This document shows, piece after piece, positions 13,412 through 40,957 of a stretch of 40,957 nt of DNA. The DNA is from a bacterium (GTDB taxonomy: Bacteria; Patescibacteriota; Minisyncoccia; Minisyncoccales; JANBVM01). The notes below the pieces were generated by a model, which saw only the letters and a list, made by a program, of their open reading frames with translations, ran no database searches and was not told the DNA's origin. The DNA lies in assembly GCA_030665965.1 (NCBI GenBank), contig DAOUYT010000002.1, positions 1-40,957 of the forward strand, given 5' to 3'. Numbering within the stretch: the stretch's first letter is position 1; each line of letters begins with the position of its first letter. The translations under genes and the position numbers were made by a program.

Positions 13412-13924
13412 ATGGCTTTTCTCAATCCTTCAAAAGTTTTAGACATACTTGATTTAAAAGAAAGCTTAACTGCAGCTGATTTTGGTTCAGGCTCTGGGGG
13501 CTGGGCCATACCTTTGGCAAAGAGATTAAAGCAGGGAAAGGTGTATGCTATAGATATCTTGCAGGAACCCCTTTCAGCCTTAAAAAGCAAGACACGGTTG
13601 GAAAACATCTTAAACATTGAGACAGTAAAATCAGACGTAGAAAGAACATCCAAGTTGTTAAGTAATAGTTGCGATCTGATTTTAATGACAAATCTTTTAT
13701 TTGAGGTGGATGATAAAAAGAAAACAATGGAAGAGGGAAAAAGGGTTTTAAAAAAAGGAGGAAAGCTTTTGATAGTAGACTGGAAGAAAGGCGCTCCCTT
13801 GGGACCCAAAGACAAGGTTTCTGTTGAAGAGATAAAAAAAATAGCCAGAGAAATTGATTTTAAACTGGAGAAAGAATTTGAGGCAGGTCTTTATCACTGG
13901 GGTATGGTGTTTAAAAGGTCTTGA
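13412..13924 (+). CDS. Class I SAM-dependent methyltransferase
   Basis: A 170-residue Rossmann-fold methyltransferase. Motif I is AADFGSGSGG (about residues 19-28), an acidic motif II is in VYAIDI, and LKKGGKLLIVDWK is the post-II strand typical of the UbiE/Methyltransf_11 group. The substrate is unknown. It seems to have its own promoter and ribosome-binding site between gyrA and the VirB2-like cluster, so functional links to either are not shown. Confidence 0.85.
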   Translation: MAFLNPSKVLDILDLKESLTAADFGSGSGGWAIPLAKRLKQGKVYAIDILQEPLSALKSKTRLENILNIETVKSDVERTSKLLSNSCDLILMTNLLFEVDDKKKTMEEGKRVLKKGGKLLIVDWKKGAPLGPKDKVSVEEIKKIAREIDFKLEKEFEAGLYHWGMVFKRS

Positions 13925-26751: not shown

Positions 26752-26803
26752 TGATTCGTATCTTGAGGAAATAATGATAAACTACTAATGAGGAATTATT
26801 AAG

Positions 26804-27331
26804 ATGGTTGAAATAATACCAAGACCAATTAAAAAAATAGTTCGTTGGGAGGAAATCTTATTCTATTTCTTGGTATTCTTAATAATGGCAATGATTGTGG
26901 TTTATTTTGTATTAGGTTCTCTTCAAGAAAGGGCCCAGAGCAAACTCCAGGATTTAGAGGAAGGATTGTCTCAAGGAAGAACCCCTCAAATGACTGCTTT
27001 AGAACAAGAAGCCCTTTATTATAAGGTAAAGATTGATGAATTCTCTCCTTTTCTTGAAAAGCATACCTTAAGTTCAAAATTCTTTGATTTTTTAGAAAGC
27101 AGGACCCATCCCAAAATTTTCTTTTTTCAAATCAATCTAAATCCTGGAAATTCAAAGGTTCTCCTTTCTGGACTGGCCGATAGTTTTCTGTCTTTGGGAC
27201 AACAACTTTTAATTTTAAGTAAGGATCCAATGGTTGAAAGCATAAATCTGTCCAGTGTGTCTCTCGGCGAAACAGGGGGAATTGAGTTTGCCTTCGATAT
27301 GGTATTAGCCGGGGAGGTTTTCAGGTATTAA
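26804..27331 (+). CDS. pilN: PilN-like inner-membrane pilus assembly protein
   Basis: A 175-residue bitopic protein. It has a short cytoplasmic start (VEIIPRPIKKIVRWEE), one membrane helix (about residues 20-41), a coiled-coil segment and a ferredoxin-like extracytoplasmic domain. The sequence itself is poorly conserved; the call rests on topology and on the pilM-N-O order. The IIPRP start resembles the PilN segment that docks with PilM. Confidence 0.72.
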   Translation: MVEIIPRPIKKIVRWEEILFYFLVFLIMAMIVVYFVLGSLQERAQSKLQDLEEGLSQGRTPQMTALEQEALYYKVKIDEFSPFLEKHTLSSKFFDFLESRTHPKIFFFQINLNPGNSKVLLSGLADSFLSLGQQLLILSKDPMVESINLSSVSLGETGGIEFAFDMVLAGEVFRY

Positions 27332-27380
27332 TAAAAGCCCTGTCTGTGGCCAAGATACTGATTTCCCTTTTAGCCAAATT

Positions 27381-27899
27381 ATGACAAACTATTCATTTTA
27401 CATCATTATTGCTTTATCCCTCTCTTTATTGTTGATATTCGGTTTGGTTTTGCCGAGATATAGGGACTGGGATTCTTTAAACCAGGAGATTTTAAAGAGG
27501 GGGATTGAATTCCGCTCTCAGGAGAACTATTTTCAAGAAATCCAGAGAATTTCTGGAAAGCTTAAAGAAAACCAGGATTCTCTTTCAAAGATTGAATCTG
27601 CCTTACCTGAAGATCGTTCCCTGCCCCAGGTGTTAAACTTTTTCCAAAAAGCAGCTTCTCAGTCAGGCACTACCTTGAAACACATTGTTCCGGTTTTTGT
27701 TGTTTTAGAAAGAGGACAGAATATCAGAACCACCAAGGTCAACCTTGTTTTAGGTGGTGATTATTACAGTTTTAAAAATTTTCTTTCCCTTGTAGAAAAA
27801 TCAGCCAGACTCATTGAGGTTGAGAATATCTATTTTTCCTATCCTAAAGAAGGAGGTCCATTTATCTTTAATATATCAACAAAGACTTATTCATATTAG
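27381..27899 (+). CDS. pilO: PilO-like inner-membrane pilus assembly protein
   Basis: A 172-residue bitopic protein with a membrane helix at about residues 5-25, a coiled coil (about 30-75), and a C-terminal domain with LPEDRSLPQVLNFFQKAASQSGTTL. That segment matches the PilO pattern of a pairing domain acting with PilN. The gene ends one base before the next start codon. Confidence 0.8.
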   Translation: MTNYSFYIIIALSLSLLLIFGLVLPRYRDWDSLNQEILKRGIEFRSQENYFQEIQRISGKLKENQDSLSKIESALPEDRSLPQVLNFFQKAASQSGTTLKHIVPVFVVLERGQNIRTTKVNLVLGGDYYSFKNFLSLVEKSARLIEVENIYFSYPKEGGPFIFNISTKTYSY

Positions 27900-27900
27900 T

Positions 27901-28170
27901 ATGGCTATAACATTTCAAGAGCAACTGAAGAAACAGAAAAATTTAGTCTTTATTTTTTTATCCTTGGTGTTAGTCACTGTTTTTATCATTTGGTGGGGGT
28001 ACTATTATGTGGGAGAAGAGCCCAGGGAGGAATTAATTATAAAACATTTTAAAAAAATAGAGATAGATTTCGAGCTTTTAGAGAACCCTCTTTTAAACCA
28101 GCTTCAACCAATAGAGAAGATACCGCCTTTTGAGGGAGAGGTGGGCAGAGAAAACCCCTTTATTCCTTAA
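27901..28170 (+). CDS. PilP-like small membrane protein
   Basis: An 89-residue protein with one membrane helix (about residues 16-38) and a short extracytoplasmic tail ending VGRENPFIP. The GRxxPF ending recalls the N-terminal region of PilP, which links the inner-membrane complex to the outer-membrane secretin. A secretin is absent here, which fits a cell without a typical outer membrane. The open frame extends upstream to 27814, but the ATG one base after the pilO stop is the likely start. PilP identity is tentative. Confidence 0.6.
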   Translation: MAITFQEQLKKQKNLVFIFLSLVLVTVFIIWWGYYYVGEEPREELIIKHFKKIEIDFELLENPLLNQLQPIEKIPPFEGEVGRENPFIP

Positions 28171-28237
28171 AATTAAAAAGGGTGTTTTGTTAAATTCCTG
28201 ATTAATTATTTTTATTGAGTTAGTTTTTTTCACCAAT

Positions 28238-29950
28238 ATGGCATTATTAAAAGAACTAGTTAAAAAAGGATTTTTAGAAAAAGGCAAAGCTGATTTTTTA
28301 GAAAAGGAGGTTAAGGCTTCAGGAAAAAAAGAAGAAGAGGTTATTCTGGAAAAAAAGATTGTTTCCGAAGAATTTTTGTTTAACCTAAAATCAGAACATT
28401 TAAAGATGTCTTTGAGAGATATAGATCCTAAAAAGGTTGCTCTGGAGGTTTTGGAACTCATTCCCGAGGAAACTGCCAAACACTACAAGATGGTTGCCCT
28501 ATCCAAGAAAGACGATGTTTTAGAAGTGGGAATGATTTATCCTGAGGATCTGGATGCCCAGGAGGCAATGAAGTTTTTGTCAAGGAGGGGTAAATTTGAC
28601 TATCGATTATATCTGATTACTCCCACCACTTTTACTAAGATATTGAAACAGCATCAAACCTTAAAAAAGGAGATAAAAAAGGCTTTAGAGAAATTAGAAA
28701 GTGAATTGAAAGTGGAAAAGGTTTCCAGACCCCCTAGAGCTGAAATAGAGAGACTGGTTGAAGAAGCTCCTATTTCCAAGGTAGTGTCCGTAATCTTAAG
28801 ATATGCGGTTGAAGGAAAGGCATCTGACATCCACATTGAACCAGGTCAAGAGACGTTGAGGGCCCGCTTTAGATTACTAGGGTCTTTACATTCCTCATTT
28901 TTTCTACCCATTAGACTCCATAGGGCTATAGTTTCCAGGATTAAGGTTTTGTCTAATTTAAGACTTGATGAAACCAGGATTCCCCAGGACGGCAGGTTTT
29001 CAGCCATAATAAACAATAAAAACATTGACTTTAGGGTTTCAACATTTCCCACAACCCTGGGGGAAAAGGTAGTGCTCAGGATTCTGGATCCCACAGTGGG
29101 TTTGAGGAGCTTTAAAGAACTAGGAGTGCTTAAGAAAAATGCTAGAATTATCAATAAAGCGATTCAGAAACCCTATGGATTGATTTTGAGCACCGGTCCA
29201 ACCGGTTGCGGAAAAACAACCACCCTGTATGCGATCTTGCAGATTTTAAATAAAGAAGGAGTAAATATCGTTGCCCTGGAAGATCCGGTAGAATATTTCA
29301 TAAAAGGGATTAATCAATCTCAGGTTAAACCGGAAATTGGCTACAGCTTTGCCCGAGGTTTAAGGCATATCCTCAGACAGGATCCTGATATAATAATGGT
29401 GGGGGAGATTAGAGATAAGGAAACTGCCTCTTTGGTTACCCATGCTGCTCTGACAGGCCATATTGTTTTATCAACCCTGCACACATCCAACTCCCTGGGA
29501 GTAATTCCCAGATTAGTGGATTTGGGGGTTCAACCATTTTTGATCCCCCCTACCCTGATATTAGCCATAGCCCAGAGATTGGTCAGAAGGTTGTGTAATG
29601 AGTGCAAAAAAAAGGTAAAGCCCTTAAAAAAGATTGAAGATTTAATTTTAAAGGAGATTGAAGGATTTCCCCCAACAATCAAAAAAGGGATTGATCTTTC
29701 AAAACCCTTATTTGTTTGGGAACCAAAGGGTTGCCCGCATTGTAATAACAAAGGTTTTTCCGGAAGAGTCGGTCTTTTCGAGATTTTAGAAATGACCCAC
29801 CAACTTGCCGAAATAGTTTTAGAAGATATTTCAGAAAAAACTATACAGCAGGAGGCTGAGAGACAATTAATGACCACAATGAGGCAGAATGGTATTTTAA
29901 AAGTATTAAATGGAATGACCACCATAGCTGAGGTTTTAAGGGTAACCTAG
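28238..29950 (+). CDS. pilB: Type IV pilus extension ATPase PilB (GspE/PulE family)
   Basis: A hexameric motor that drives pilus polymerisation. It has an N-terminal MshEN-like domain (about residues 1-150), then KASDIHIEP and the linker. Walker A is STGPTGCGKTTTL, an Asp box is in ALEDPVEY, Walker B is DPDIIMVGEIRD, and the His box is THAALTGHIVLSTLHT. A Cys4 zinc site (CNECKKK ... CPHCNNKGFSGR) marks it as PilB/GspE rather than PilT. At 570 residues the length is normal. Confidence 0.95.
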   Translation: MALLKELVKKGFLEKGKADFLEKEVKASGKKEEEVILEKKIVSEEFLFNLKSEHLKMSLRDIDPKKVALEVLELIPEETAKHYKMVALSKKDDVLEVGMIYPEDLDAQEAMKFLSRRGKFDYRLYLITPTTFTKILKQHQTLKKEIKKALEKLESELKVEKVSRPPRAEIERLVEEAPISKVVSVILRYAVEGKASDIHIEPGQETLRARFRLLGSLHSSFFLPIRLHRAIVSRIKVLSNLRLDETRIPQDGRFSAIINNKNIDFRVSTFPTTLGEKVVLRILDPTVGLRSFKELGVLKKNARIINKAIQKPYGLILSTGPTGCGKTTTLYAILQILNKEGVNIVALEDPVEYFIKGINQSQVKPEIGYSFARGLRHILRQDPDIIMVGEIRDKETASLVTHAALTGHIVLSTLHTSNSLGVIPRLVDLGVQPFLIPPTLILAIAQRLVRRLCNECKKKVKPLKKIEDLILKEIEGFPPTIKKGIDLSKPLFVWEPKGCPHCNNKGFSGRVGLFEILEMTHQLAEIVLEDISEKTIQQEAERQLMTTMRQNGILKVLNGMTTIAEVLRVT

Positions 29951-29996
29951 AAAAGATAACGATGACAAGAATCTTAACACTAAGTTTGTTGTAATT

Positions 29997-30362
29997 ATGA
30001 AACATATTTTATTAATAGAGGACGACCCCTTCCTTGTTAACATTTATACTACCAAACTGAACGAGTGTGGTTTTTCAGCAGAGGTTGCTATTGATGGTCG
30101 GGCAGGTCTAAGAAAAATAAAAGAAAAAAAATTTGATTTGATACTTTTGGATATTGTTTTACCCCACATTGATGGATGGCAGGTTCTAAAGGAGCTTGAG
30201 AAAACAGGTAAATTAAAGGATTTAAAGGTTTTTATTCTTTCCAATCTTGGTCAGAAAGAAGAAGTGGAAAAAGGTTTGAAGATGGGTGTGGTAAGATATT
30301 TTATCAAGGCCCATTATACTCCGGCTGAGGTGGTGGATGAAATTAGAAAAATATTAAAATAA
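29997..30362 (+). CDS. CheY-like response regulator (receiver domain only)
   Basis: A 121-residue stand-alone receiver. The acidic pocket is EDD (residues 8-10), the phosphoacceptor is Asp52 in LLLDIVLP, the switch Ser lies in ILSNLG, and the conserved Lys104 is in YFIKAHYTP. No output domain is present. It sits between pilB and pilT with eight bases to pilT, so it most likely controls pilus motors, as receiver proteins do in twitching systems. No histidine kinase is in the window. Confidence 0.9.
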   Translation: MKHILLIEDDPFLVNIYTTKLNECGFSAEVAIDGRAGLRKIKEKKFDLILLDIVLPHIDGWQVLKELEKTGKLKDLKVFILSNLGQKEEVEKGLKMGVVRYFIKAHYTPAEVVDEIRKILK

Positions 30363-30369
30363 TAACATT

Positions 30370-31437
30370 ATGTCAAACTACGTCTCTCAACTTAAAAAAC
30401 TCCTTGAATTAACCATTAAAGAACAGGCTTCAGATTTACATCTCTCAGTGGGTCACTCCCCGGTTATGAGAATTGCCGGTCGTCTTATCCCTTTATTAAA
30501 AGAAAAAAAGCTTTCTCCTGAAGACACCAAGAATCTTGCTTTTACCCTTATGACCGATAGCCAGAGAAAAGAATTCCTGAAAGAAAAGGAGATTGACTTT
30601 TCCTATAAATTTGAAGAAAAAGCTCGCTTCAGGATAAACATATTCTTTCAGAAAGGGTATGTCTCTTGCGCCCTGAGATTTGTGCCAGCTAAAATTAAAA
30701 CCATTGATGAGCTTAACCTCCCCCCGATTTTACACGAGTTTGCAAAGGCCAGCCAGGGTTTTGTTTTGGTCTGTGGTCCCTCGTCTCAGGGAAAATCAAC
30801 AACCTTGGCAGCCTTAATTGACGAGATTAATCATACTAGGACCGATCACGTGGTAACCATTGAAGACCCCATTGAATATGTTTTTACTCCTGATAAGGCC
30901 ATCATTGATCAGAGAGAGGTAGGTGAAGATACCCTGAGTTTTGCCAGGGCCCTTCGTTCCACCTTTCGTCAGGACCCCGATGTAATTATGGTAGGAGAAA
31001 TGAGGGATCCAGAGACAATGGCTACAGCCATTACAGCAGCTGAAACCGGTCACCTGGTTTTTGCTACCTTACATACCAATTCTGCTGCCCAGACAATCCA
31101 TCGAATCGTTGATTCCTTCCCTCCCCAGCAACAGAATCAAATCAGGGTTCAGTTCTCAGGATCTCTGTTAGGGGTGGTTTCCCAACGATTACTACCCAGG
31201 ATTAAAGGAGGATTGATACCTGCCTGTGAAGTCATGATTTCTACTCCTGCTGTTGCCAATCTGATCCGGGAAAACAAGATCCATGAAATTCCTATGTTTA
31301 TTGAAACCAATCTTGAGGTAGGAATGATTTCTTTGAATCGCTCTTTAGCCGATTTAGTAAAAAGAAAAGAAATCTCTTTGGAAAGCGCCCTCAATTATTC
31401 TCTTTCACCAAGCGAACTAAGAATACTTATACGTTAG
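30370..31437 (+). CDS. pilT: Type IV pilus retraction ATPase PilT
   Basis: A 355-residue motor for pilus retraction. The start ASDLHLSVGHSPVMRI is the PilT N-terminal domain. Walker A reads GPSSQGKSTT, where GPTGSGKSTT is usual, but it still fits GxxxxGKS. Further motifs are IEDPIEYVF, Walker B DPDVIMVGEMRDPET and ETGHLVFATLHTNSA. It lacks the Cys4 site of PilB. It lies seven bases before pilC. Confidence 0.94.
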   Translation: MSNYVSQLKKLLELTIKEQASDLHLSVGHSPVMRIAGRLIPLLKEKKLSPEDTKNLAFTLMTDSQRKEFLKEKEIDFSYKFEEKARFRINIFFQKGYVSCALRFVPAKIKTIDELNLPPILHEFAKASQGFVLVCGPSSQGKSTTLAALIDEINHTRTDHVVTIEDPIEYVFTPDKAIIDQREVGEDTLSFARALRSTFRQDPDVIMVGEMRDPETMATAITAAETGHLVFATLHTNSAAQTIHRIVDSFPPQQQNQIRVQFSGSLLGVVSQRLLPRIKGGLIPACEVMISTPAVANLIRENKIHEIPMFIETNLEVGMISLNRSLADLVKRKEISLESALNYSLSPSELRILIR

Positions 31438-31444
31438 CTAATTA

Positions 31445-32647
31445 ATGAAATTCAATTATCAGGTCAGAACCAAAGAAGGAGAGATTCAGACAGGGATAGT
31501 GGAGGCTTCTTCAAAAGACGCTGCTCTTTCTCTTTTGCAAAAACACGGATTTTACGTCACCTATCTTGAGAAGGCCAAGCTTCCTTTTTATGCCAGAGGT
31601 CTGGGGCTTTTTAGAGGCATCACCGTAAGGGACATTGTTTTATTTTCCAGACAATTGGCAATGATGTTTACAGCAAAGGTTTCCCTGGTGGAAGCCTTGA
31701 GGGTTTTGGCCAGCCAGATCAAGAACCTGGAGTTTCAAGCAAAAATTTTAAATCTATCTGAAGAAGTAGAAGGAGGAACAGCTTTTTCAAAAGCCCTCTC
31801 CCTTCATCCCAAGATATTTTCTGTCCTTTATATTTCAATAGTTAAGGCTGGAGAAGTTTCAGGTAAACTATCTGAATCCCTTAATTATCTGGCCGATCAC
31901 CTGGAAAGGGAATATCATTTATCATCTAAAACAAAAGGAATACTTATATATCCCTCTTTTATTGTGTTATTGGTTGTTCTGGTTTTCACCTTAATGATTT
32001 ATACGGTTATTCCTCAGCTAAAATTGGTACTTGAGGAAAGTGGAGTTGACATACCGATAATTACTCGGTATGTCATCGCAGCCTCTGAATTTTTAAGGGT
32101 CTATGGTTTTATTTTCATTTTGGGATTCTTTATTTCTTTATTCTTGCTCTTTCGATATTACAAGACAGAAAGAGGGAAGGATTTTCTTGATAAAATATTT
32201 ATTAGATTACCGATCCTGGGTACCATTTTGAAAACAATATATCTTTCCAGGTTCGCAGAAAATCTTTCTACCTTAATCTCAGGAGGCTTAATGATTACTC
32301 AAGCCCTTGATCTTTGCGCCAATCTTATTGGTAGTTCAGTTTATAAAAAGGCAGTTCTTTCAACAATGGAAGAGGTGAGAAAAGGGGTACCCATATCATC
32401 CTCCCTGGCTCTTTTTCCGGATATTTTTCCCCCGGTTTTCGTTCAGATGACCCTGGTAGGAGAAAAAACAGGAAGTTTAGATACCAGTTTAATGCAGATT
32501 GCCACCTTTTATCAGGTAGAGGTTGAAAGGGGAATTACCAATATATTGAGTATTCTGGAACCTGTCCTGATTATCACTTTAGGAATTATGGTCGGGGGAT
32601 TGATGTTTTCCATTTTAATGCCTCTTTATCAAATGATGTCTATTTAG
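31445..32647 (+). CDS. pilC: Type IV pilus platform protein PilC (GspF family)
   Basis: A 400-residue inner-membrane protein on which PilB and PilT act. It carries two GspF repeats: FSRQLAMMFTAKVSLVEALRVL (first) and FAENLSTLISGGLMITQALDL (second). Each is followed by membrane helices, about three in all (near residues 168-190, 220-245 and 370-395). The N-terminal FNYQVRTKEGEIQTGIVEA is also typical. The length is normal. Confidence 0.94.
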   Translation: MKFNYQVRTKEGEIQTGIVEASSKDAALSLLQKHGFYVTYLEKAKLPFYARGLGLFRGITVRDIVLFSRQLAMMFTAKVSLVEALRVLASQIKNLEFQAKILNLSEEVEGGTAFSKALSLHPKIFSVLYISIVKAGEVSGKLSESLNYLADHLEREYHLSSKTKGILIYPSFIVLLVVLVFTLMIYTVIPQLKLVLEESGVDIPIITRYVIAASEFLRVYGFIFILGFFISLFLLFRYYKTERGKDFLDKIFIRLPILGTILKTIYLSRFAENLSTLISGGLMITQALDLCANLIGSSVYKKAVLSTMEEVRKGVPISSSLALFPDIFPPVFVQMTLVGEKTGSLDTSLMQIATFYQVEVERGITNILSILEPVLIITLGIMVGGLMFSILMPLYQMMSI

Positions 32648-32663
32648 TTTCTTGACAGGGATA

Positions 32664-32672
32664 TGTTATAAT
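32664..32672 (+). promoter_or_regulatory. Extended -10 promoter of the pilin gene
   Basis: TGTTATAAT (TATAAT at 32667-32672). A TTGACA at 32652 is too close (9 bases) to serve as its -35. The pilin ATG is at 32820, so the predicted leader is about 140 bases. Confidence 0.5.
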
Positions 32673-32819
32673 AAATATCATAAGAAGAATTGTGTTTTAG
32701 AATAATTGATTCTTGCTTTGCTCAAATTAAAAAATAAAAAAAGTTGTTAAAAATTTAAAGGTCGAATCCTTTAATCATCACTCAATAGATATTAAACATA
32801 AATAATAAAAATAATTAAT

Positions 32820-33293
32820 ATGATTAAAAAAAATAAAGGTTTCACCTTAATTGAGCTTTTGGTGGTTATAGCTATTATAGGGACTCTGTCTGGGATTGTT
32901 CTGGTTTCTTTGGGAGGGGCAAGAAGTAAAGCCAGGGACGCAAACAGACAATCTGATATGAGGCAGATAGTTACTGCTCAAGAGATGTATTATCTTGATA
33001 ACGAAGAATATGTCGCTACCACTTCCGTAGATTATATACCTCAAATCGGGGAATATCTGGAGAAACTATATGATCCTCAGGAGAGCCAAGGTGTGCATTA
33101 TAAATGGGTAGCCAATACTACCGACCATCAGAAATTCTGTGCCTATGCTACCTTAGAGAATGTAGGAGATTGTGTTGGAATTACCAGCGATACCCGTTAT
33201 TTCACTTCTTCTCCAAATGGAACCAGAATATATTGCGGTACTGTTTCAGATCTCCCCACTCTTACCAATTGTTTTTCAAAAGTCGCTTACTAA
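32820..33293 (+). CDS. pilA: Type IV prepilin (major pilin candidate)
   Basis: A 157-residue prepilin. The leader MIKKNKG is cut before Phe8 in [20 protein letters not shown], with Glu at position 5 of the mature protein and N-methylation at Phe1. Four cysteines near the end may form disulfide loops. The size and the [15 protein letters not shown] helix resemble GspG/PilE-type pilins of CPR. It has its own promoter with a long leader and ends at a strong terminator, which fits high separate expression. Confidence 0.93.
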
Positions 33294-33317
33294 TACAAGA
33301 TATTTATTCTTTCAGGG

Positions 33318-33350
33318 AACTGGCGGGAAGAATTTCCCGTCAGTTTTTTA
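33318..33350 (+). terminator. Strong terminator after the pilin gene
   Basis: A 12-bp stem with one G-U pair (AACTGGCGGGAA with TTCCCGTCAGTT, loop GAAT) followed by a T-rich run. Confidence 0.88.
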
Positions 33351-33364
33351 TATTTTATTTAAAA

Positions 33365-33373
33365 TGCTAAAAT
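33365..33373 (+). promoter_or_regulatory. Extended -10 promoter of the prepilin peptidase gene
   Basis: TGCTAAAAT (TAAAAT at 33368-33373), about 30 bases before the ATG at 33403, just after the pilin terminator. The same TGCTAAAATAA string recurs at 34205. Confidence 0.5.
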
Positions 33374-33402
33374 AAAGTTGTGTTTTTCTAATTTAATTTA
33401 AA

Positions 33403-34215
33403 ATGAGATTTTTAATTTATCTTTTTTCCTTTTCTTTTGGATTGATAGTGGGGAGTTTTTTAAATTGCGTGATTTACAGACTTCATATTGGTAAGGGGTT
33501 TTTGGAGGGAAGATCCTACTGCCCCAGCTGTAAACACATGTTGACCTGGCAGGATTTAATTCCTGTTTTGAGTTTTTTAATTTTAAGGGGTAGGTGTAGA
33601 TATTGTAAAAAGCCCATTTCTATTCAGTATCCTCTGGTGGAATTTACTACTGGAATTTTATTCACCTTTATAGTTTTTCAAAATATAACTTCATTGTTTT
33701 ACGGTTCTGTAATTTCAAGCCTTTTAAATATTTTTTTCTTGTTTCTTATCTCTTGTTTCTTAATTATTATCTTTGTTTATGATTTAAAACACTATATTAT
33801 TCCTGACAAGGTAATCTATCCTGCCATACTGGCAGTTGCCAGCCGGTATCTACTAGCTGATGTTTTTTTAAATCTTTATACGAGAGACGAGCTGGTGAAT
33901 ATTGTTTATTCTGCCTTGGGAGCAGGAGCCCTTTTTTTAGCAATAGTGTTGTTTTCTCGCGGCAAGGGAATGGGAATGGGAGATGTGAAGCTATCTTTTT
34001 TTATGGGATTGCTGCTTGGCTTCCCAAATATTTTAGTAGCTTTATTTTTAAGCTTTTTTATTGGAGCTACAGTGGGAGTGATATTGATTGTTCTTAGAAA
34101 AAGGAGTTTTAAATCAGAAGTTCCCTTTGCTCCATTCTTGGTTACAGGAACCTTTCTGGTAATGTTTTTCAGTGAAGAGATAATAGATTATCTTAATTTA
34201 ATTTTGCTAAAATAA
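33403..34215 (+). CDS. pilD: Prepilin peptidase / N-methyltransferase
   Basis: A 270-residue polytopic aspartyl protease that trims and methylates prepilins. The N-terminal GSFLNCVIYRL and the paired CPSCKH and CRYCKK zinc motifs belong to the methylase domain. The catalytic aspartates are in VYDLKHYIIPD and GMGDVKLSFFMG. About eight hydrophobic segments are present. It has its own extended -10 promoter and ends the pilus cluster. Confidence 0.94.
   Translation: MRFLIYLFSFSFGLIVGSFLNCVIYRLHIGKGFLEGRSYCPSCKHMLTWQDLIPVLSFLILRGRCRYCKKPISIQYPLVEFTTGILFTFIVFQNITSLFYGSVISSLLNIFFLFLISCFLIIIFVYDLKHYIIPDKVIYPAILAVASRYLLADVFLNLYTRDELVNIVYSALGAGALFLAIVLFSRGKGMGMGDVKLSFFMGLLLGFPNILVALFLSFFIGATVGVILIVLRKRSFKSEVPFAPFLVTGTFLVMFFSEEIIDYLNLILLK
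34205..34213 (+). promoter_or_regulatory. Extended -10 promoter before the DUF483-like gene
   Basis: TGCTAAAAT (TAAAAT at 34208-34213) overlaps the end of the prepilin peptidase gene. Downstream, the 10-mer CCATAACCTT is repeated in tandem (34228-34247). Confidence 0.45.
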
Positions 34216-34287: not shown

Positions 34288-35151
34288 ATGCTAAGAATAT
34301 TTAATATCTCAGAATTTGGAGATTACTCTTTTAATGCGGTAGAGTTTATCAGTTTAAAGTATAATCTTAGAAAAGTTGTTCAATTGGATTTACGTTCTGA
34401 ACGTAGATTTTTGGATTTACAAAAAATAGTTAAAAAATTGGGTTGGGCAGTTGTAAAGTCTAATTTTAAATTTGATTTAGAAGAAAGAAAAAAAGGAAAT
34501 TTTAAACGTATAGACATTAATGATAAAAGAAAAGGAGAGTTCCGTATTTATATTTTTAATCCTAAGAGATTGAGATTTAAAATACCCAATGAACCAAAAG
34601 AATTAGCCAGATTAATGGGTTATTCCTCTTGTTGTATTGATTCATATATGGAGCGTATGAAGGCAAACAAAAACATATTTGGATGTATGAATATTACCAA
34701 AGATTCAAGTTTTTCTTTCCTGATTAACCCTTTTGCAAAATTAGTATCTAATGCTTATTTAATAAATCACTTCCCTTGTTCTCTTAATTGTAAGAAAAGT
34801 TTAAAATTAGCAAAAGCAATATCGAAAGTAATTCAGTCAGATTATCCACACTTTTATAAAAAAATATATCAATATTGCCATTTTCCTGTTTTAGTGTTCC
34901 CTAATTCCAGTGCTAATTATGATATGGAAGAAGAAGTTCCTTTTTTGTTGTTAATGGAGAAATCAAAGGAAGAGCAAAGTTATAAAATCTTAAACAACAC
35001 ATTACACGGTGATAATAATTTATCTAAGAATTTTAAGAATGCAGATACAATTGTAGTATCTCGGAAAAACATAAAGGTTTTTAGGAATAATATCTTAAAG
35101 AGTCAAATTAATAGAAGCGCCGTAGAATCCTATTTTCTCATTCCTTATTAA
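34288..35151 (+). CDS. DUF483-like Cys-rich protein of unknown function
   Basis: A 287-residue protein. The recognisable core is ELARLMGYSSCCIDSYMERM, followed by SNAYLINHFPCSLNCKKSLKLAKAI. The GYxxCC and PCxxxC motifs recall DUF483-type proteins, which have no known function; the Cys residues could bind metal. I choose the ATG at 34288; a TTG at 34246 would add 14 residues. Codon use is more AT-rich than in the pilus genes, which suggests a boundary between core and accessory DNA. It lies upstream of the HxsD/HxsB genes on the same strand but is separated by a hairpin and a promoter. Confidence 0.5.
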   Translation: MLRIFNISEFGDYSFNAVEFISLKYNLRKVVQLDLRSERRFLDLQKIVKKLGWAVVKSNFKFDLEERKKGNFKRIDINDKRKGEFRIYIFNPKRLRFKIPNEPKELARLMGYSSCCIDSYMERMKANKNIFGCMNITKDSSFSFLINPFAKLVSNAYLINHFPCSLNCKKSLKLAKAISKVIQSDYPHFYKKIYQYCHFPVLVFPNSSANYDMEEEVPFLLLMEKSKEEQSYKILNNTLHGDNNLSKNFKNADTIVVSRKNIKVFRNNILKSQINRSAVESYFLIPY

Positions 35152-35156
35152 TACTC

Positions 35157-35188
35157 CTACGAGACCTGTCCTCGTAGAGATTTTGATT
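35157..35188 (+). terminator. Hairpin after the DUF483-like gene
   Basis: A perfect 7-bp stem CTACGAG-ACCTGTC-CTCGTAG followed by AGATTTTGATT. It is a plausible but weak terminator that separates this gene from the Hxs operon. Confidence 0.5.
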
Positions 35189-35245
35189 CTCGTCATGCTC
35201 AAAAATAAAATTATTTTTTAAACTCAAATACTAATAATATTAGAT

Positions 35246-35274
35246 TTTACAATGGTAAGTTTTTATCTTATACT
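35246..35274 (+). promoter_or_regulatory. Predicted promoter of the Hxs operon
   Basis: TTTACA (35246-35251), 17-base spacer and TATACT (35269-35274). The expected start near 35281 leaves a leader of about 39 bases before the HxsD-like ATG. Confidence 0.6.
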
Positions 35275-35319
35275 GGATAGTAATGAACAAACCCAAGAAA
35301 AATTTATATTAATAAAACA

Positions 35320-35799
35320 ATGTCAAAGCCAAATATTAATAAATCAGAAAACAAAATAGTTATTTCTGTAGACCCTAAGCTTTACCCTTTAGAGTCTATC
35401 TACGGGGCAGCTTATGTTTTTTTAGATAGAGCCTATGTTTTTCTAGATGGTGATTCTAAAAAAGAAGTCTATGTTCATCTAAAAGGAAAGAAGAAACTTA
35501 CAGATGGAGACATGGAGAATTTGGCAGATGAATTTCTTAATGAATTGTTGAATTACAGCTTGCGGTATCAGATTTCCAAGGATAACCGTCAGATTAGAGA
35601 ATATATAGTGGGAGCTGCCCTAATAGGTGCTTTAGGAGAGAACATCGACAAATCAATGGAATCAGATGAAAAGGATTGGAAAAAGGATCCTTTGGGAATT
35701 GCAGTTCCCTGGGAAGAAAAGTACGCAAAAAGAGATGGTACAAAAAAGAAAGAACCTCCTTTAAAAGGAGCAGTTGGACAAAAGGATGGTAAAAAATAG
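35320..35799 (+). CDS. hxsD: HxsD-like protein of a His-Xaa-Ser system
   Basis: A 159-residue protein matching HxsD, the small conserved partner of the His-Xaa-Ser radical SAM system. Key segments are VDPKLYPLESIYGAAYVFLDRAYVF (residues 18-41) and DEFLNELLNYSLRYQI (70-85), the region behind the family's LLNDYxLRE signature, then IREYIVGAALIGAL. The last 40 residues are Lys-rich and probably disordered. Its biochemical role is unknown; substrate recognition or scaffolding of the maturase is a reasonable guess. It is followed after six bases by a shorter relative and then the HxsB-like gene. Confidence 0.8.
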   Translation: MSKPNINKSENKIVISVDPKLYPLESIYGAAYVFLDRAYVFLDGDSKKEVYVHLKGKKKLTDGDMENLADEFLNELLNYSLRYQISKDNRQIREYIVGAALIGALGENIDKSMESDEKDWKKDPLGIAVPWEEKYAKRDGTKKKEPPLKGAVGQKDGKK

Positions 35800-35805
35800 A
35801 GCATT

Positions 35806-36012
35806 ATGACTATTGTTTTTAATAAACAATTTTATCATCTGCAGGCTATAAAAAAAGCAACTGAGGCTTATAAAGAATTGGCTGTCTTTAACATCAAAGA
35901 AAAAGATAATAATATTGAGATTGACATAGATGGGGTGGATAAAGATGTTAAAGACGTTATTAAAGACGAATTTTGCAACTATGTATTGGCAGAAACCAAA
36001 AAGTTTACATAG
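35806..36012 (+). CDS. Short HxsD-like protein (tandem paralogue)
   Basis: A 68-residue protein. By eye it aligns with the first 85 residues of the upstream HxsD-like protein: QFYHLQAIKKATEAY against KLYPLESIYGAAYVF, and KDEFCNYVLAETK against ADEFLNELLNYSL. It lacks the IREYIVGAAL segment and the Lys-rich tail. It lies between the HxsD-like and HxsB-like genes with gaps of 6 and 24 bases, so one operon is likely. It may form a heterodimer with the longer copy; this is inference. Confidence 0.6.
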   Translation: MTIVFNKQFYHLQAIKKATEAYKELAVFNIKEKDNNIEIDIDGVDKDVKDVIKDEFCNYVLAETKKFT

Positions 36013-36036
36013 TAGCTTTGTATATTTTTTATCATT

Positions 36037-37497
36037 ATGTTGTCAGATTCAAATAAGATTAAATTAAACAGGGAAAAGGTAGGTTTTTGCCGTTTTAAGA
36101 AACTAGATGATAAATATCTATTAACCAATGATGTGGGATATTATTATTTTTTAGAACCTGATAAATTTAAAGATTTTATGGAGGGAAAACTAAAAAGAGA
36201 AAGTGATATTTATCAAGAATTGAAAGATAAAGGATTTATCAGGGATGATTTTGACATAGATGAAATGATTAAGACGTGTAGCTCCTGTAATATTTCTTCA
36301 ATTGGTGGTCCTTCCCTTCATATAATAGTTGTTACCTTGAGGTGTAATTTTAAGTGTATCTATTGTCAGGCAAGCCGTCGTTCAATGGAAGAGAAACAAT
36401 ATGACATGGATGTAAAAACAGCAAAAAGGGTTGTTGATACAATATTTGAAAGCCCGAGCAAGGTGATTACAATAGAGTTTCAGGGCGGAGAACCATTGGT
36501 CAACTGGCCGGTGGTTAAATTCATTGTTGAATACGCAAGAGAAAAAAACAGAACAGAGAAAAAGAAACTTTTAATTTCTCTGGTTTCTAATTTCAGCTTG
36601 ATGACAGAGGAAAAATATAAATTCTTAACTGAAAAAGAGGTAAGTCTTTGTACTTCTCTGGATGGTCCTGAAGAGCTTCAGAATAGAAATCGGCCTTTGC
36701 CCAATGGAAATGGTTATCGGCTTACTACCTCGTGGATTAATAAAATAAAAAAAGATGAACAAGATAAAACAAAAAAAGGTCATGCCTGTTATTATTTATC
36801 TGCCCTCGCTACCATATCCAGGTTTTCTCTTAAATATCCAAAAGAGATTATAGACGAATATGTTAAATGGGGATTCAGGGGCATACATTTACGACCCTTA
36901 AGCTTTTTAGGTTTTTCTGGCGGCCCAGCTAAGGAAAAGATTGGTTATTCACCTGAAGAATTTATGGAATTTTGGCGGGAAGCAATGGATTACATTATAG
37001 AGATTAATGTCAGAGGGAAGTTATTCTATGAAAGGGGGGTGAGGATAATGCTCACAAAGATTTTAACAGACAGGGATCCTGGTTTCCTCGATTTACGTTC
37101 ACCTTGTGGAGCGGCAATTGGTCAGTTGGTCTATAACCATGATGGTAAGGTTTATACCTGTGATGAAGGGAGAATGGTGAAAGATGATACTTTTATGCTC
37201 GGTGATGTAAATAAAGATACTTATAAAAAGATAATCTCTAATCCAAAAGTCAAGACAATGGTTACAGCTTCAATATTAGACAATTTATCATGCGATTACT
37301 GTGTTTATAAACCTTATTGTGGTGTATGCCCGGTTCTGGCTTACGCTCTTTACGGGAATCTTTTTCCCCAGGTAATAAATACTGACCGTTGTAAGGTGCA
37401 TAAAGAAATGTTTGACTATGTTTTTAGAAAATTGCAAAATGAAAGAACAGGTAAGACTTTTAATCAATGGGTAACATTGCCGAAGACAAAAGCTTGA
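36037..37497 (+). CDS. hxsB: HxsB-like radical SAM/SPASM maturase
   Basis: A 486-residue peptide-modifying enzyme. The radical SAM motif is CNFKCIYC (Cys103, Cys107, Cys110), with EFQGGEPL as the SAM-binding GGE motif. A SPASM domain for auxiliary iron-sulfur clusters has Cys357, 375, 419, 422, 428, 431 and 452 (SPCGAAIGQLVYNHDGKVYTCDEG, CDYCVYKPYCGVCPV). This spacing and the CDEGRM segment match HxsB. An extra CSSC pair (residues 81-84) precedes the core. The N-terminal 80 residues may be a peptide-recognition domain. The neighbouring HxsA-like protein with His-Xaa-Ser repeats is the expected substrate. Confidence 0.85.
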   Translation: MLSDSNKIKLNREKVGFCRFKKLDDKYLLTNDVGYYYFLEPDKFKDFMEGKLKRESDIYQELKDKGFIRDDFDIDEMIKTCSSCNISSIGGPSLHIIVVTLRCNFKCIYCQASRRSMEEKQYDMDVKTAKRVVDTIFESPSKVITIEFQGGEPLVNWPVVKFIVEYAREKNRTEKKKLLISLVSNFSLMTEEKYKFLTEKEVSLCTSLDGPEELQNRNRPLPNGNGYRLTTSWINKIKKDEQDKTKKGHACYYLSALATISRFSLKYPKEIIDEYVKWGFRGIHLRPLSFLGFSGGPAKEKIGYSPEEFMEFWREAMDYIIEINVRGKLFYERGVRIMLTKILTDRDPGFLDLRSPCGAAIGQLVYNHDGKVYTCDEGRMVKDDTFMLGDVNKDTYKKIISNPKVKTMVTASILDNLSCDYCVYKPYCGVCPVLAYALYGNLFPQVINTDRCKVHKEMFDYVFRKLQNERTGKTFNQWVTLPKTKA

Positions 37498-37558
37498 GAG
37501 ATGAATGGTGGAACCAAGAATAGCCTGGACTGAAGAAATGCTATTTTATTGAAATCTA

Positions 37559-37567
37559 TGGTATAAT
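37559..37567 (+). promoter_or_regulatory. Extended -10 promoter of the HxsA-like gene
   Basis: TGGTATAAT (TATAAT at 37562-37567) lies 30 bases before the ATG at 37598, so the substrate gene can be expressed apart from its maturase. Confidence 0.55.
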
Positions 37568-37597
37568 AATATAATAATATTAAAATCATATAAAAAT

Positions 37598-39052
37598 ATG
37601 TTAATAAAAAAACTACCATCTATAAAAAAGAATATTGAAGCATTTCTCACAAGCGAGGAAGGAAAGATAAGCAAAAAGAGTGCTTTGGAATTAGGTATGG
37701 GGGTGGCTATGTTAGGGACGATGCTGACCCAAACAGCTTCAGCCGTCCACAAGAGCTTTTCTCAAGCTGGCTCTCCCTCCTCTCATGCCAGTCATCTCTC
37801 GAAAGGATCAGGTGGTATGGCTGCTGTGCATTCGTCTGGTGGACACACTTCCCATATTTCCCATAGTTCTCATAGCTCTCATAGTTCTCATACCTCTCAT
37901 AGTTCCCACAGTTCCCATGGTTCCCATGGTTCCCATAGTTCCCATGGTTCCCATGGTTCCCACAGCTCCCATAGTTCCCACGGTTCCCACGGTTCCCACA
38001 GCTCCCATGTCTCCCATGCTAGTTGTGGTGGTGGTTGTCCATTTGTTTTAGTTTGGAACGGTAAAAGGTTTATTATTGATAACAACATCTTACCTGACTC
38101 CGAAAATATATTAAGGAAAAATACTGTTGTGGAGGAATTATACAAATTAGAAGTAGTACCCAAATCCAAAAACAAAAAGTATCTTTTACAGGTAATGGAG
38201 TTTGAAAAAGAACATTCTTACTTTCATGGATTTGAGCTTATTAAAATTGTCCATTCAAAAGAACTGAGCATTGGCATTATCAATAAGAAAATAGTTGCTT
38301 TCAAAAACCTTATCTTACCCTCTTTGATTAAAGACAAAAAAGGCAAAGACTGGACAAAGCAATTATCTGCTTTAGATGATAAAGCATTCTTTAATGGAGA
38401 AAAAGATGATGTATTAAATATCAAATTTGGCAATATCCAAAGTTTAAAGAACTGCCATCTGGTTTTTAGAGCCAGTCTTAGGGCAGGCTATCCCAGGATT
38501 GCCAAGATAGGGCAAAGATTAGAAAGAGCTGTTTCTGAAAACAAACTGATTGATTCCTTAAAAAAGATAGCAGCAGCTTCCTTGGCAGCTGCCAAGATAA
38601 TGGAATCTGACACTGCTTCTGCAGAAATTGTTAAATCCATTAATCTCTCTGTTGTATATATCGGGGAGAATAAAGAGAAATTAGTTAACATCATTCATCC
38701 TAGAGAACAATTCTCTGTGGGTTTGGTTAATATTTTCCCACACATAAAGAGGGGACAGAAGTCTTTATCTTTAACATTAGAATGGACTGCTCCTCACAAT
38801 TTAAGCTTTATTGGCTTAGCAGATGTTGATTCATTAACGAGTCCCCATATTAAGCAAGAGATTGTTAAACTATCTAATCTAAGACATTCAGAAGATAAGG
38901 ATATTAATAAAAAGCATTTAAAGGATGGAAAAGTAGAATTAATTCCTGGTAAATATCTTGAATTAGAGTTTCCTGCAAAAGAAGAAGAGGTTAAATCTAA
39001 TCAAAAAACTTCCCTTGTCCTTAAATCTAAAGGATACTATACACCTCTTTAA
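37598..39052 (+). CDS. hxsA: HxsA-like His-Xaa-Ser repeat protein with large C-terminal domain
   Basis: A 484-residue protein, probably the substrate of the HxsB-like enzyme. Residues 1-35 form a charged leader (FLTSEEGKISKKSALELG); a hydrophobic segment (about 32-46) ends in TASA-VH, a possible signal peptidase site. Residues 83-140 are a strict HxS repeat: 20 His, each exactly three residues apart, with Ser before each His and Ser, Gly, Thr, Ile or Val in the variable place. Then comes CGGGCPFVLVWNGKRFIIDNN and a roughly 340-residue, beta-rich, non-repetitive domain with no family I can name. Known HxsA proteins are, to my knowledge, much shorter. Modification of the repeats, possibly on a surface protein, is inferred. 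Confidence 0.75.
   Translation: MLIKKLPSIKKNIEAFLTSEEGKISKKSALELGMGVAMLGTMLTQTASAVHKSFSQAGSPSSHASHLSKGSGGMAAVHSSGGHTSHISHSSHSSHSSHTSHSSHSSHGSHGSHSSHGSHGSHSSHSSHGSHGSHSSHVSHASCGGGCPFVLVWNGKRFIIDNNILPDSENILRKNTVVEELYKLEVVPKSKNKKYLLQVMEFEKEHSYFHGFELIKIVHSKELSIGIINKKIVAFKNLILPSLIKDKKGKDWTKQLSALDDKAFFNGEKDDVLNIKFGNIQSLKNCHLVFRASLRAGYPRIAKIGQRLERAVSENKLIDSLKKIAAASLAAAKIMESDTASAEIVKSINLSVVYIGENKEKLVNIIHPREQFSVGLVNIFPHIKRGQKSLSLTLEWTAPHNLSFIGLADVDSLTSPHIKQEIVKLSNLRHSEDKDINKKHLKDGKVELIPGKYLELEFPAKEEEVKSNQKTSLVLKSKGYYTPL
37844..38017 (+). repeat. 9-bp tandem repeat encoding His-Xaa-Ser
   Basis: Nineteen 9-base units, mostly TCCCATAGT and TCCCATGGT variants, in perfect codon phase. The unit sequence varies mainly at the third base and in the Xaa codon. 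It is a coding repeat, not a CRISPR. Confidence 0.92.
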
Positions 39053-39119
39053 TGAAATTAGGGTATTTGATAAAAAGTGATATATTATACTTTATGATTT
39101 TAAAGTATTATTGTAATAT

Positions 39120-39145
39120 TGGCTATTGAAGAAATAGCCATTTTT
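39120..39145 (+). terminator. Terminator after the HxsA-like gene
   Basis: An 8-bp stem TGGCTATT with AATAGCCA and a five-base loop, followed by TTTTTATT. Confidence 0.7.
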
Positions 39146-39150
39146 ATTAA

Positions 39151-39401
39151 ATGAAAAGATTGATTCATATTAACCTTACTTATTATTGTAATAGAAGCTG
39201 TGGTTACTGTTTTGCCAAGGGTTTTTTAGAAAAATCATTAATGAATTACAATGGGAAGTAAATTTGTTTCCCCAGTGCAAGGATTGTGTTTTTAAAAAGA
39301 ATAAACAATGCCAAGCGGGTTGCTTGAATCGTAAACTTCTTCAGGTTAAGGATGCTGTCAAATTAACAGACAGGAATTTAAAACCGCCAAGCATACATTA
39401 A
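39151..39401 (+). pseudogene. Internally deleted radical SAM/SPASM gene remnant
   Basis: The frame from ATG 39151 reads MKRLIHINLTYYCNRSCGYC, a clear radical SAM start with CxxxCxxC, but stops at 39261 after 36 codons. In another frame the next bases (from about 39245 to the stop at 39401) read WEVNLFPQCKDCVFKKNKQC and then QAGCLNRKLLQ, which looks like the Cys-rich end of a SPASM domain. The middle 250-300 residues of the enzyme are missing. It is best explained as a decayed second maturase gene. It lies downstream of the HxsA-like gene, where an HxsC-type partner could once have been. Confidence 0.7.
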
Positions 39402-39682
39402 TCTTATCTTGTTTAATTATATTGAAAGTGTTATTCTTAATTACGAGCAAAGCGAGGAATCAAGGTTCTTGCTGAAAGCAAGGTTCTTATTAAGAGATTT
39501 ATATTCTTTCTAGCAAGAACAATCCAAAGAACAATCTAGGATTGATGTGAGAATTGATTCAAAGACAATAATGTTGATATAGCCAGACAACCCTTTATAC
39601 TTTTTGGATATTACTGAATAAATTAATTTTTCTAAAGGTCAAAAAATAATAAAAATAATAAAAATTAAGTCAAAATAAAAAT
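39402..39682. other. Noncoding stretch with short repeats
   Basis: No convincing gene. It holds CAAGGTTCTT twice (39461, 39479), an inverted partner AGCAAGAAC (39512), AAGAACAATC twice (39515, 39527), and a GAGCAAAGCGAGGAATCAA element (39445-39463) related to sequences at 32706 and 35183. It looks like decayed or recombined DNA between the radical SAM remnant and the next gene. Confidence 0.6.
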
Positions 39683-40321
39683 ATGAATAAGATACTAATA
39701 TTTTTAATAAGTGTTGTTTTTGTGGTGGTTGTTTTTGTGGTAGTAGTTAATACTGTATTCTCTCCTCAATACCCTACTCAAAACAATTCTTTAATTGAAG
39801 AATTGCCACCTATTACAGATGAAGAATTAAATAGGATTCTTGGTCTGGTTACCCAAAATCTAGGCCAAGATTTTTCAGATTTAAACGAAAGCCATTTAAT
39901 TAATTTAGTTCATATTGTAAAAGAAAATTATGATTATGAAATTTCTTGCCGGCTTGGTCCTGCTTATGAGACCGCAAATTTAAATAAATACTTCCCTGAA
40001 GAACTGGTTTCTATGGGTCAAATAAGAAACTGTGATGTTGAAACCGCCAAAGTAATAGATAAGGCAGTGCGCTCTTTTAGAGTAGACTGCAGGGTTTTTA
40101 CAGGTGAAATACCACCTGGGCTTACTGATTATTATTTCTTTGCTGTATCTTTTAAAGAAGAGAAAGTAACTCAAGAATGGATTGATACGATAACTCAAAC
40201 ACAGAGTGATAGACCAGAAGTGCTAAAGTGTCTTGAACCCTTAAAGAATCTAATAGGAGAGACAGTAGCCAAGTCTGGAGCAGGGGTAGTAGATTTAAAA
40301 GAGAACCTTGTCTTTTTCTAA
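39683..40321 (+). CDS. Membrane-anchored or secreted protein of unknown function
   Basis: A 212-residue protein with an N-terminal hydrophobic helix of about 22 residues (ILIFLISVVFVVVVFVVVVN) after a single Lys, so it is either an anchored or a secreted protein. The rest is soluble, acidic, and carries four Cys (ISCRLG, RNCDVE, VDCRVF, LKCLEP). I recognise no family. It lies between two radical SAM reading frames of the accessory locus, so it could belong to the Hxs region, but nothing in the sequence proves that. Confidence 0.6.
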   Translation: MNKILIFLISVVFVVVVFVVVVNTVFSPQYPTQNNSLIEELPPITDEELNRILGLVTQNLGQDFSDLNESHLINLVHIVKENYDYEISCRLGPAYETANLNKYFPEELVSMGQIRNCDVETAKVIDKAVRSFRVDCRVFTGEIPPGLTDYYFFAVSFKEEKVTQEWIDTITQTQSDRPEVLKCLEPLKNLIGETVAKSGAGVVDLKENLVFF

Positions 40322-40468
40322 TGAGAAGCTATTTAGGCGCCAGTAGAGATAATATCTATAAACATTAAGGGTTATTTACTTTACAAAATAAAAAATTATT
40401 AGATTTCATACAGATCCTTAATTTATAGAATCAAGATTCTTGTAATAAATAAATATTGTATCTTTCAA

Positions 40469-40957
40469 ATGACAATGAGACGAGTTGATTTAAAAGTGGG
40501 CTTTCAATGTAACAATCGTTGTAGATTCTGTGTTCAGGGTAATAAAAGAGAGGCGTGTCCCGATAAATCCACAGAAGAGGTAATGGCAATCTTAAAAAAA
40601 GAAGTTAAAGACCATGAAGGTATTGTTTTTACAGGAGGGGAACCCACTATTAGAAAAGAACTTATAGAGTGGGTGAAATATGCCAGGGACTTGGGCTATA
40701 AAACAATTCAGATTCAAACCAATGGAAGAATATTTGCTTATAAGAGTTTTTGCGAAAAAATGATTAAAGCTGGTGCTAATGAATTTTCACCAGCTCTTCA
40801 CGGTTCCACGGCTGAAATCCACGATTATTTAACCCGGGTGCCAGGAAGTTTTAACCAAACTATTCAAGGAATTAAAAATCTAAAGGATTTAGGGCAGTAT
40901 ATCTTAAGCAACACAGTAATTACTAAACCAAATTATAAGGATTTGCCAAATTTAGCT
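40469..40957 (+). CDS. Radical SAM protein, 3' end beyond the window
   Basis: An open frame of 163 codons running off the right edge. CNNRCRFC (Cys14, Cys18, Cys21) is the iron-sulfur motif, followed by VQGNKR, FTGGEPTIRKEL (GGE motif), IQTNGR and SPALHGSTAEIHD. The short CxxxCxxC-VQG type start differs from the HxsB-like protein, and from HxsC as I recall it. The C-terminal domain is unseen, so class and target cannot be assigned. Its position in the Hxs region suggests a second maturase. Confidence 0.85.
   Translation, partial: MTMRRVDLKVGFQCNNRCRFCVQGNKREACPDKSTEEVMAILKKEVKDHEGIVFTGGEPTIRKELIEWVKYARDLGYKTIQIQTNGRIFAYKSFCEKMIKAGANEFSPALHGSTAEIHDYLTRVPGSFNQTIQGIKNLKDLGQYILSNTVITKPNYKDLPNLA

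Follow-up and report, generated by a model that had tools for sequence, protein, structure and literature searches.

A patescibacterial gene cluster of the His-Xaa-Ser (Hxs) type and its predicted exported substrate

Known Hxs systems and the patescibacterial cluster

The HxsABCD, or His-Xaa-Ser (Hxs), family was reportedly catalogued by Haft and Basu in 2011. In the open papers that we searched, no characterization of Hxs chemistry was found, and the family was named only in passing. NCBIfam already holds models for HxsA3 (NF038309), HxsA4 (NF038313), HxsC4 (NF038332), and HxsD_rel (NF038315), showing that the kind of variant described here is already known. We focused on a 40,957-nucleotide stretch of DNA (the window), which is the whole of contig 14 (C14) of a 470-kb metagenome-assembled genome (MAG) with 33 contigs, 91% completeness, and 0.02% contamination. 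All genes of the cluster under study lie on the plus strand between positions 34288 and 40957, immediately 3′ of a type IV pilus cluster, and its true 3′ end is absent because the contig stops at 40957. From the comparisons given below, the cluster is almost certainly of the Hxs type and represents a real, probably working patescibacterial variant of this catalogued, chemically unsolved system. The explanation that we favor as a whole, to which we assign a probability of roughly 0.6, is a patescibacterial Hxs variant that cross-links an exported surface protein.

The core genes carry this assignment. HxsB, a putative radical S-adenosylmethionine (SAM)/SPASM maturase (36037 to 37497), reaches 494.1 bits with TIGR03978 (cut-off, 370), while HxsD (35320 to 35799) reaches 60.5 bits with TIGR03976 (cut-off, 50) and HxsD_rel, a short HxsD paralogue (35806 to 36012), reaches 69.2 bits with NF038315 (cut-off, 41). 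An earlier sequence-only reading had proposed an Hxs system and had named beforehand the HxsB and HxsD scores as one point on which the proposal could fail; both proteins exceed their cut-offs. The order that it gave, with HxsD, a short HxsD-like protein, HxsB, an HxsA-like protein, and further radical SAM coding DNA on one strand, is present in full. The HxsA-like precursor (37598 to 39052; 484 amino acids) is matched by the HxsA3 and HxsA4 models with E values of ∼1e-12 and stays below the cut-offs of both (48.3 versus 65 and 47.2 versus 55, respectively), whereas HxsA from a relative, G105, passes them (71.7 versus 65 and 79 versus 55). (Here, G numbers denote genomes and L numbers loci of relatives or other organisms.) It is the only HxsA3-type match in its genome.

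Beyond HxsA, the contig end cuts an HxsC/HxsC4-like radical SAM gene after its first 163 codons (40469 to 40957). Its product is 81% identical to a complete protein of 299 amino acids from G003, a single-contig genome of the same family, and scores 130 bits with HxsC4 (cut-off, 500) and 103 bits with HxsC (cut-off, 267.9). The radical SAM gene announced for this position is real, but it falls below the HxsC and HxsC4 cut-offs even in its complete form from G003 (176.6 and 106 bits, respectively). Given that the HxsC cut-off is missed, we regard the system as an Hxs variant rather than as canonical HxsABCD.

The canonical system of the Aeromonas salmonicida plasmid NC_009349 resembles that of the window in its adjacent HxsD and HxsB genes, both above cut-off (in the window, HxsD lies close to HxsB on the same strand, with only HxsD_rel between them), in an HxS-repeat precursor with a hydrophobic N terminus and a C-terminal domain, and in an HxsC-type radical SAM enzyme. 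The gene order differs, being D-B-C-A with one annotated HxsC on the plasmid versus D-d-B-A with a second HxsD (d) in the window. The plasmid HxsA combines an apparent signal peptide with an array of 7 HxS triplets and a C-terminal domain and has no FLTSEEG motif, whereas the window's HxsA has 20 triplets and a different C-terminal domain. The C-terminal stretch of the plasmid protein looks to us like a peptidoglycan-binding domain. Unlike the plasmid, the window's branch has HxsC-like enzymes that stay below cut-off, of which relatives carry several per locus, and relatives also have an A24 peptidase.

HxsB is probably a working enzyme, given that C103-x3-C107-x2-C110, the GGEP motif, and the SPASM cysteines are kept in an alignment of 11 patescibacterial rows and that the window's genome encodes MetK and can thus make SAM. 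HxsD was predicted by AlphaFold2 with high confidence (pLDDT of 94 to 98) over residues 11 to 90, as a beta-alpha-beta-beta-alpha fold, followed by a poorly predicted tail that bears a conserved D...PWEEKY motif. A fold search against the PDB returned weak ferredoxin-like and Rpb11/Pcc1-like matches (Z of ∼7 or less, not significant); the winged-helix PqqD fold of RRE-type recognition proteins was not listed among these weak matches, which is not evidence of its absence. Since HxsD and HxsD_rel each match the other's NCBIfam model, a heterodimer of the two proteins is plausible.

Distribution and gene order

Within the relatives set, 11 genomes, among them the window's own, have HxsB above cut-off, and most of these are from the same order. 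A phylum-wide draw of 380 gave only 3 such genomes, all of this order. A scan of genome contigs with the window's HxsB alone gave no match; a broader scan, for which we used an alignment of HxsB from 11 relatives, yielded 79 loci in other organisms. Their hosts comprise Patescibacteria, Elusimicrobiota, Omnitrophota, Myxococcota, Bdellovibrionota, a spirochaete, a cyanobacterial bin, and a Woesearchaeota bin. HxsD was present in 69 of these loci, HxsD_rel in 45, an HxsC-like protein in 55, and the HxsA leader in 45, with many loci cut by contig ends. In a tally of 82 loci, a few of which represent genomes already counted under another record, D-(d)-B are adjacent in 71, and the order D-(d)-B-A is found in 46, spanning Patescibacteria, Elusimicrobiota, Omnitrophota, Myxococcota, and others. 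The same order recurs in G003, as anticipated for relatives, and a protein with HxS repeats or an HxsA leader stands near HxsB in 52 of the 82 loci (many of them contig-cut), bearing out the expected pairing of the repeat protein with the Hxs genes.

In a quick maximum-likelihood tree of HxsB, the window groups with G003 (support, 99) within a clade of 14 rows, most of them patescibacterial (support, 99), in agreement with the proposed patescibacterial setting. Other patescibacterial HxsB sequences fall elsewhere in the tree, so HxsB may possibly have had more than one origin or have been exchanged. HxsB relatives were also seen on plasmids, with 357 records in all; of these, 316 are from Klebsiella, and 284 of the total were predicted to be conjugative.

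The HxsA precursor

The HxsA leader (37598 to 37744; MLIKKLPSIKKNIEAFLTSEEG-KISKKSALELGMGVAMLGTMLTQTASA-VH) has a basic N terminus, the motif FLTSEEG at residues 16 to 22, a hydrophobic stretch at residues 29 to 44, and a cleavage-like site, ASA, at residues 47 to 49. We take the hydrophobic stretch and ASA to be a putative export signal and its likely cleavage site. The motif FLxxEE[G/A] occurs in 53 leader-bearing rows from several phyla, a tally in which the pattern presupposes EE and the rows themselves were found by profile. It resembles the pattern of Flp pilins; reading the leader as that of a Flp pilin is unsupported by Pfam. In two Myxococcota, the HxsA leaders carry a Tat-like TRRDF motif (L100:2704-3099 and L107:5353-5706), a hint at export after folding or modification.

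Next to the leader lies the HxS region (37748 to 38023), in which a few scattered triplets are followed by 20 consecutive ones (residues 83 to 142), compared with a longest run of 2 in 5,000 shuffles of the same protein. A 9-bp tandem array at 37849 to 38017 underlies the repeat. The remainder is a C-terminal domain of ∼340 amino acids (38036 to 39049; CPFV...GYYTPL) that is 42 to 67% identical in four relatives and for which Pfam and PDB sequence searches returned nothing useful. A profile of this domain gave strong matches in 6 genomes, all of them HxsB positive, and a weak match (E value, 2e-5) in G148, in a protein of 537 amino acids with a type IV pilin start. The reverse search with the G148 protein retrieved a protein of 791 amino acids from G014 with a pilin-like start and, weakly, HxsA from G003. 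The G014 protein contains repeats that we take to be InlB-like. When the HxsA C-terminal domain was compared with the pilin-like domain by hhalign, the first 131 columns aligned with a probability of 95.4% (E value, 1.8e-8). This kinship with a domain of type IV pilin-like proteins strengthens the earlier suggestion that a surface or contact protein is modified, and we consider it likely that HxsA is exported or located at the surface. Large pilin-like proteins with a domain related to that of HxsA are encoded at L134:988-2601 and L136:1297-3672, the latter with presumed InlB-like repeats.

Modification chemistry

A comparison of the substrate arrays points to a particular type of chemistry. 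G161 (L047/L077) has two HxsA genes with a common leader, one of which contains HxS triplets, while the other, located directly after a second HxsB (L047:11841-12461, the same in L077), has the array WSDWSDWSDWDNWDDWSNWSD and more. This paralogue contains 18 W-x-[D/N] triplets, versus a mean of 6.5 and a maximum of 15 in shuffled sequences. Other HxsA arrays are built from H-x-N (L071) or H-x-Q (L043). Radical SAM cyclophane enzymes are reported to join Trp to the C-beta of Asn, Asp, or Arg, Phe to the C-beta of Ser or Asn, and the C2 of His to the C-beta of Ala or Arg, in each case at position i+2 (PMC11002830). Since the HxsA arrays follow the same rule, with an aromatic residue at i and a polar one at i+2, we propose that HxsB and the HxsC-like enzymes may form three-residue cyclophanes in the array, an assignment that we rate slightly short of an even chance. 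The system thereby resembles the triceptide systems (XncB, OscB, MscB, HaaB, and YhhB; PMC11002830) in the repeating aromatic-x-polar triplets of the substrate, a motif that does not by itself establish membership. It differs from them in that these enzymes are not the ones closest in sequence to HxsB and in that HxsA is a protein of 484 amino acids rather than a short precursor peptide.

An A24 protease linked to Hxs clusters

Proteins with an A24 domain (∼290 to 440 amino acids) recur in the Hxs loci of Patescibacteria, Elusimicrobiota, Omnitrophota, a spirochaete, and a Woesearchaeota bin, where their genes lie beside or close to HxsC-like genes. In the relatives set, a profile of these proteins matched 9 of the 11 HxsB-positive genomes versus 1 of the 186 others (hypergeometric P of 5e-13, not corrected for relatedness). 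In the tenth genome with a match, G044, the gene lies on a short contig, next to a radical SAM gene of the HxsC-like type, and in the two HxsB-positive genomes without a match (G000 and G186) the clusters run into contig ends. Like type IV prepilin peptidases (PF01478), the cluster-linked proteins carry an A24 domain, with scores above the Pfam gathering score; they differ in a long C-terminal extension, in their position among HxsC-like genes, and in that no A24_N domain was detected in those scanned. No NCBIfam model matched the four cluster-linked A24 proteins scanned, and nothing in the open papers that we searched connected prepilin peptidases with radical SAM enzymes and leader peptides. 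The A24 protein that the window itself encodes is an ordinary PilD, that of the pilus cluster. Based on the association with HxsB and the conserved Gly or Ala in the leader motif, we tentatively suggest, with the odds somewhat against it, that the A24 protein is the protease of HxsA. This makes it a new candidate component of Hxs systems.

Proposed mechanism and alternative explanations

In the favored explanation, HxsA would be made with its leader (IKK..FLTSEEG), which HxsB, aided by HxsD and HxsD_rel, would recognize, to judge from its conservation. The H-x-S triplets would be modified in the cytoplasm, first by HxsB and then by the HxsC-like radical SAM enzymes, most likely through a bond between the His imidazole and the beta-carbon of the residue at i+2; with these three-residue cyclophanes, the array might become stiff and rod-like. 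HxsA would then be moved out by means of the hydrophobic leader segment, with the cluster-linked A24 peptidase probably helping in its maturation, and its C-terminal domain would come to lie at the surface, where it might serve in cell-cell contact. A fuller picture, namely, a surface rod of exported aromatic-x-polar triplets serially cross-linked by several radical SAM enzymes, with its own A24 protease and a pilin-type tip, used by reduced cells for cell contact, appears doubtful to us. The comparison yields the concrete prediction of i to i+2 cross-links with a mass shift of about −2 Da per triplet, for which the W-x-[D/N] paralogue is a natural control. If the proposal is true, a cell with a genome of ∼0.5 to 0.7 Mb devotes a whole gene cluster to remodeling a single exported protein. 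Little is known of the surface chemistry of Patescibacteria, for which this protein would then be a good candidate.

Several findings weigh against the favored explanation. The maturase models closest to HxsB are those of the nif11-type (E value, 9e-38), PapB (4e-34), and SCIFF (6e-31) SPASM enzymes, of which the latter two form thioethers, while matches to the cyclophane formers DynA (1.5e-18), YhhB (5e-14), and GrrM/OscB (2e-12) are weaker; the nearest solved relative is 5wgg (6e-26). AnSME-type enzymes, which oxidize Ser or Cys, also match HxsB. There is thus a sizeable minority chance that an Hxs system and an exported protein are indeed present, but that the radical SAM modification is another one, such as epimerization, a different C-C or ether bond, or Ser oxidation. 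A thioether across the array of the window is excluded, as this array contains no Cys, and the W-x-[D/N], H-x-N, and H-x-Q arrays agree better with a rule of aromatic i to i+2 than with a reaction restricted to Ser. The W-x-[D/N] paralogue was seen in one genome only. Dense His arrays are known to bind metals, and several relatives interleave Cys and His in HxsA (HSSCH), so that the HxS array could instead be a His polymer that binds metal and bears little or no modification, with the radical SAM enzymes acting on other substrates or on other HxsA residues. This seems improbable, given that HxS arrays adjoin HxsB in distant phyla with a common leader, as for a maturase and its substrate, and that the Trp-array paralogue has largely replaced His and retained a neighboring HxsB.

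Export and the fate of the protein can also be questioned. TatC was not found in the window's genome, so Tat export of its HxsA, considered in view of the Myxococcota leaders, was dismissed and Sec-type export is assumed. None of 12 HxsA leaders gave an N_methyl or Flp match with Pfam, and AlphaFold2 predictions of the C-terminal domain (3 sequences; pLDDT of 45) were too poor for use. HxsA has the leader-and-core layout of a ribosomally synthesized and posttranslationally modified peptide, and in many relatives it is short (69 to 150 amino acids) and has no C-terminal domain, as would suit a precursor whose array gives rise, by cleavage, to a small secreted bacteriocin or signaling peptide. 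We give this only a small chance over the favored structural surface protein, since HxsA of the window has the conserved domain of ∼340 amino acids related to a pilin-associated one; moreover, reading through the cluster genes revealed no peptide exporter that carries a peptidase domain, for which no profile search was made.

The state of the window's copy bears on whether it functions at all. Compared with G003, it has no radical SAM gene between HxsB and HxsA, and the 316-amino-acid radical SAM gene that follows HxsA in G003 is represented by two fragments in two frames (39160 to 39359), corresponding to residues 1 to 25 (80% identity) and 269 to 314 (59% identity), which by this alignment is an internal deletion in the MAG. 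With a cluster-type A24 gene also absent from the window, owing to the contig end, and the two G003 radical SAM genes missing, the copy is incomplete or decaying. That the whole cluster is a nonfunctional remnant, or its repeat an assembly artifact, is nonetheless very improbable, because its core genes are intact, keep their catalytic cysteines, and are arranged as in G003. There, a single contig carries pilins, PilD, a DUF483 protein (88% identity to that of the window, in the same place), HxsD (75%), HxsD_rel (70%), and HxsB (76%), followed by HxsA, genes like that of the window's membrane-anchored protein described below, and HxsC-like genes, which also argues against a binning artifact. 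What is new here are the HxsA leader motif shared across phyla, the A24 linkage, the pilin-type C-terminal domain, and the W-x-[D/N] paralogue, which together make the question of 2011 testable. All in all, the interpretation given by the sequence-only reading is supported.

Surrounding genes and further observations

The type IV pilus cluster (25672 to 34215, plus strand) encodes PilM, probable PilN and PilO (assigned by position only), PilB-like and PilT-like ATPases, a response regulator, PilC, a pilin, and PilD, with the Pfam domains PilM_2, T2SSE (twice), Response_reg, T2SSF, N_methyl, and A24_N_bact plus Peptidase_A24. Its adjacency to the Hxs genes, to which importance had been attached, is real in the window and in G003 but was not found in the other clusters read, and a conserved linkage of Hxs and pilus genes was therefore rejected. 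Between the two clusters lies the gene for the DUF483 protein (34288 to 35151), a possible cluster accessory (PF04467, 32 bits; gathering score, 25) with weaker relatives in the Hxs loci L035, L050, L073, and L080. The membrane-anchored protein of 212 amino acids (39683 to 40321) matched no NCBIfam or Pfam family and has homologues in the Hxs clusters of two relatives, L039 (two copies) and L037, with identities of 52%, 43%, and 45%. The sequence-only reading had named neither of these two genes, nor the radical SAM remnants at 39160 to 39359.

Other genes were observed in or beside Hxs clusters. A recurrent small protein of 62 to 74 amino acids (YIVxYRSxEHYEVLGW...), an unnamed accessory candidate, is encoded at L150:5637-5840, L151:4619-4828, L149:6699-6923, and L047:1938-2126 and 13713-13901. 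A SagB-like dehydrogenase and a YcaO protein adjoin the cluster at L041:9092-11391. PMT_2-like glycosyltransferases occur in the clusters of relatives (L039:3936-5594, L044:12247-13932, and L045:5475-7175), suggesting a possible link to surface glycosylation.

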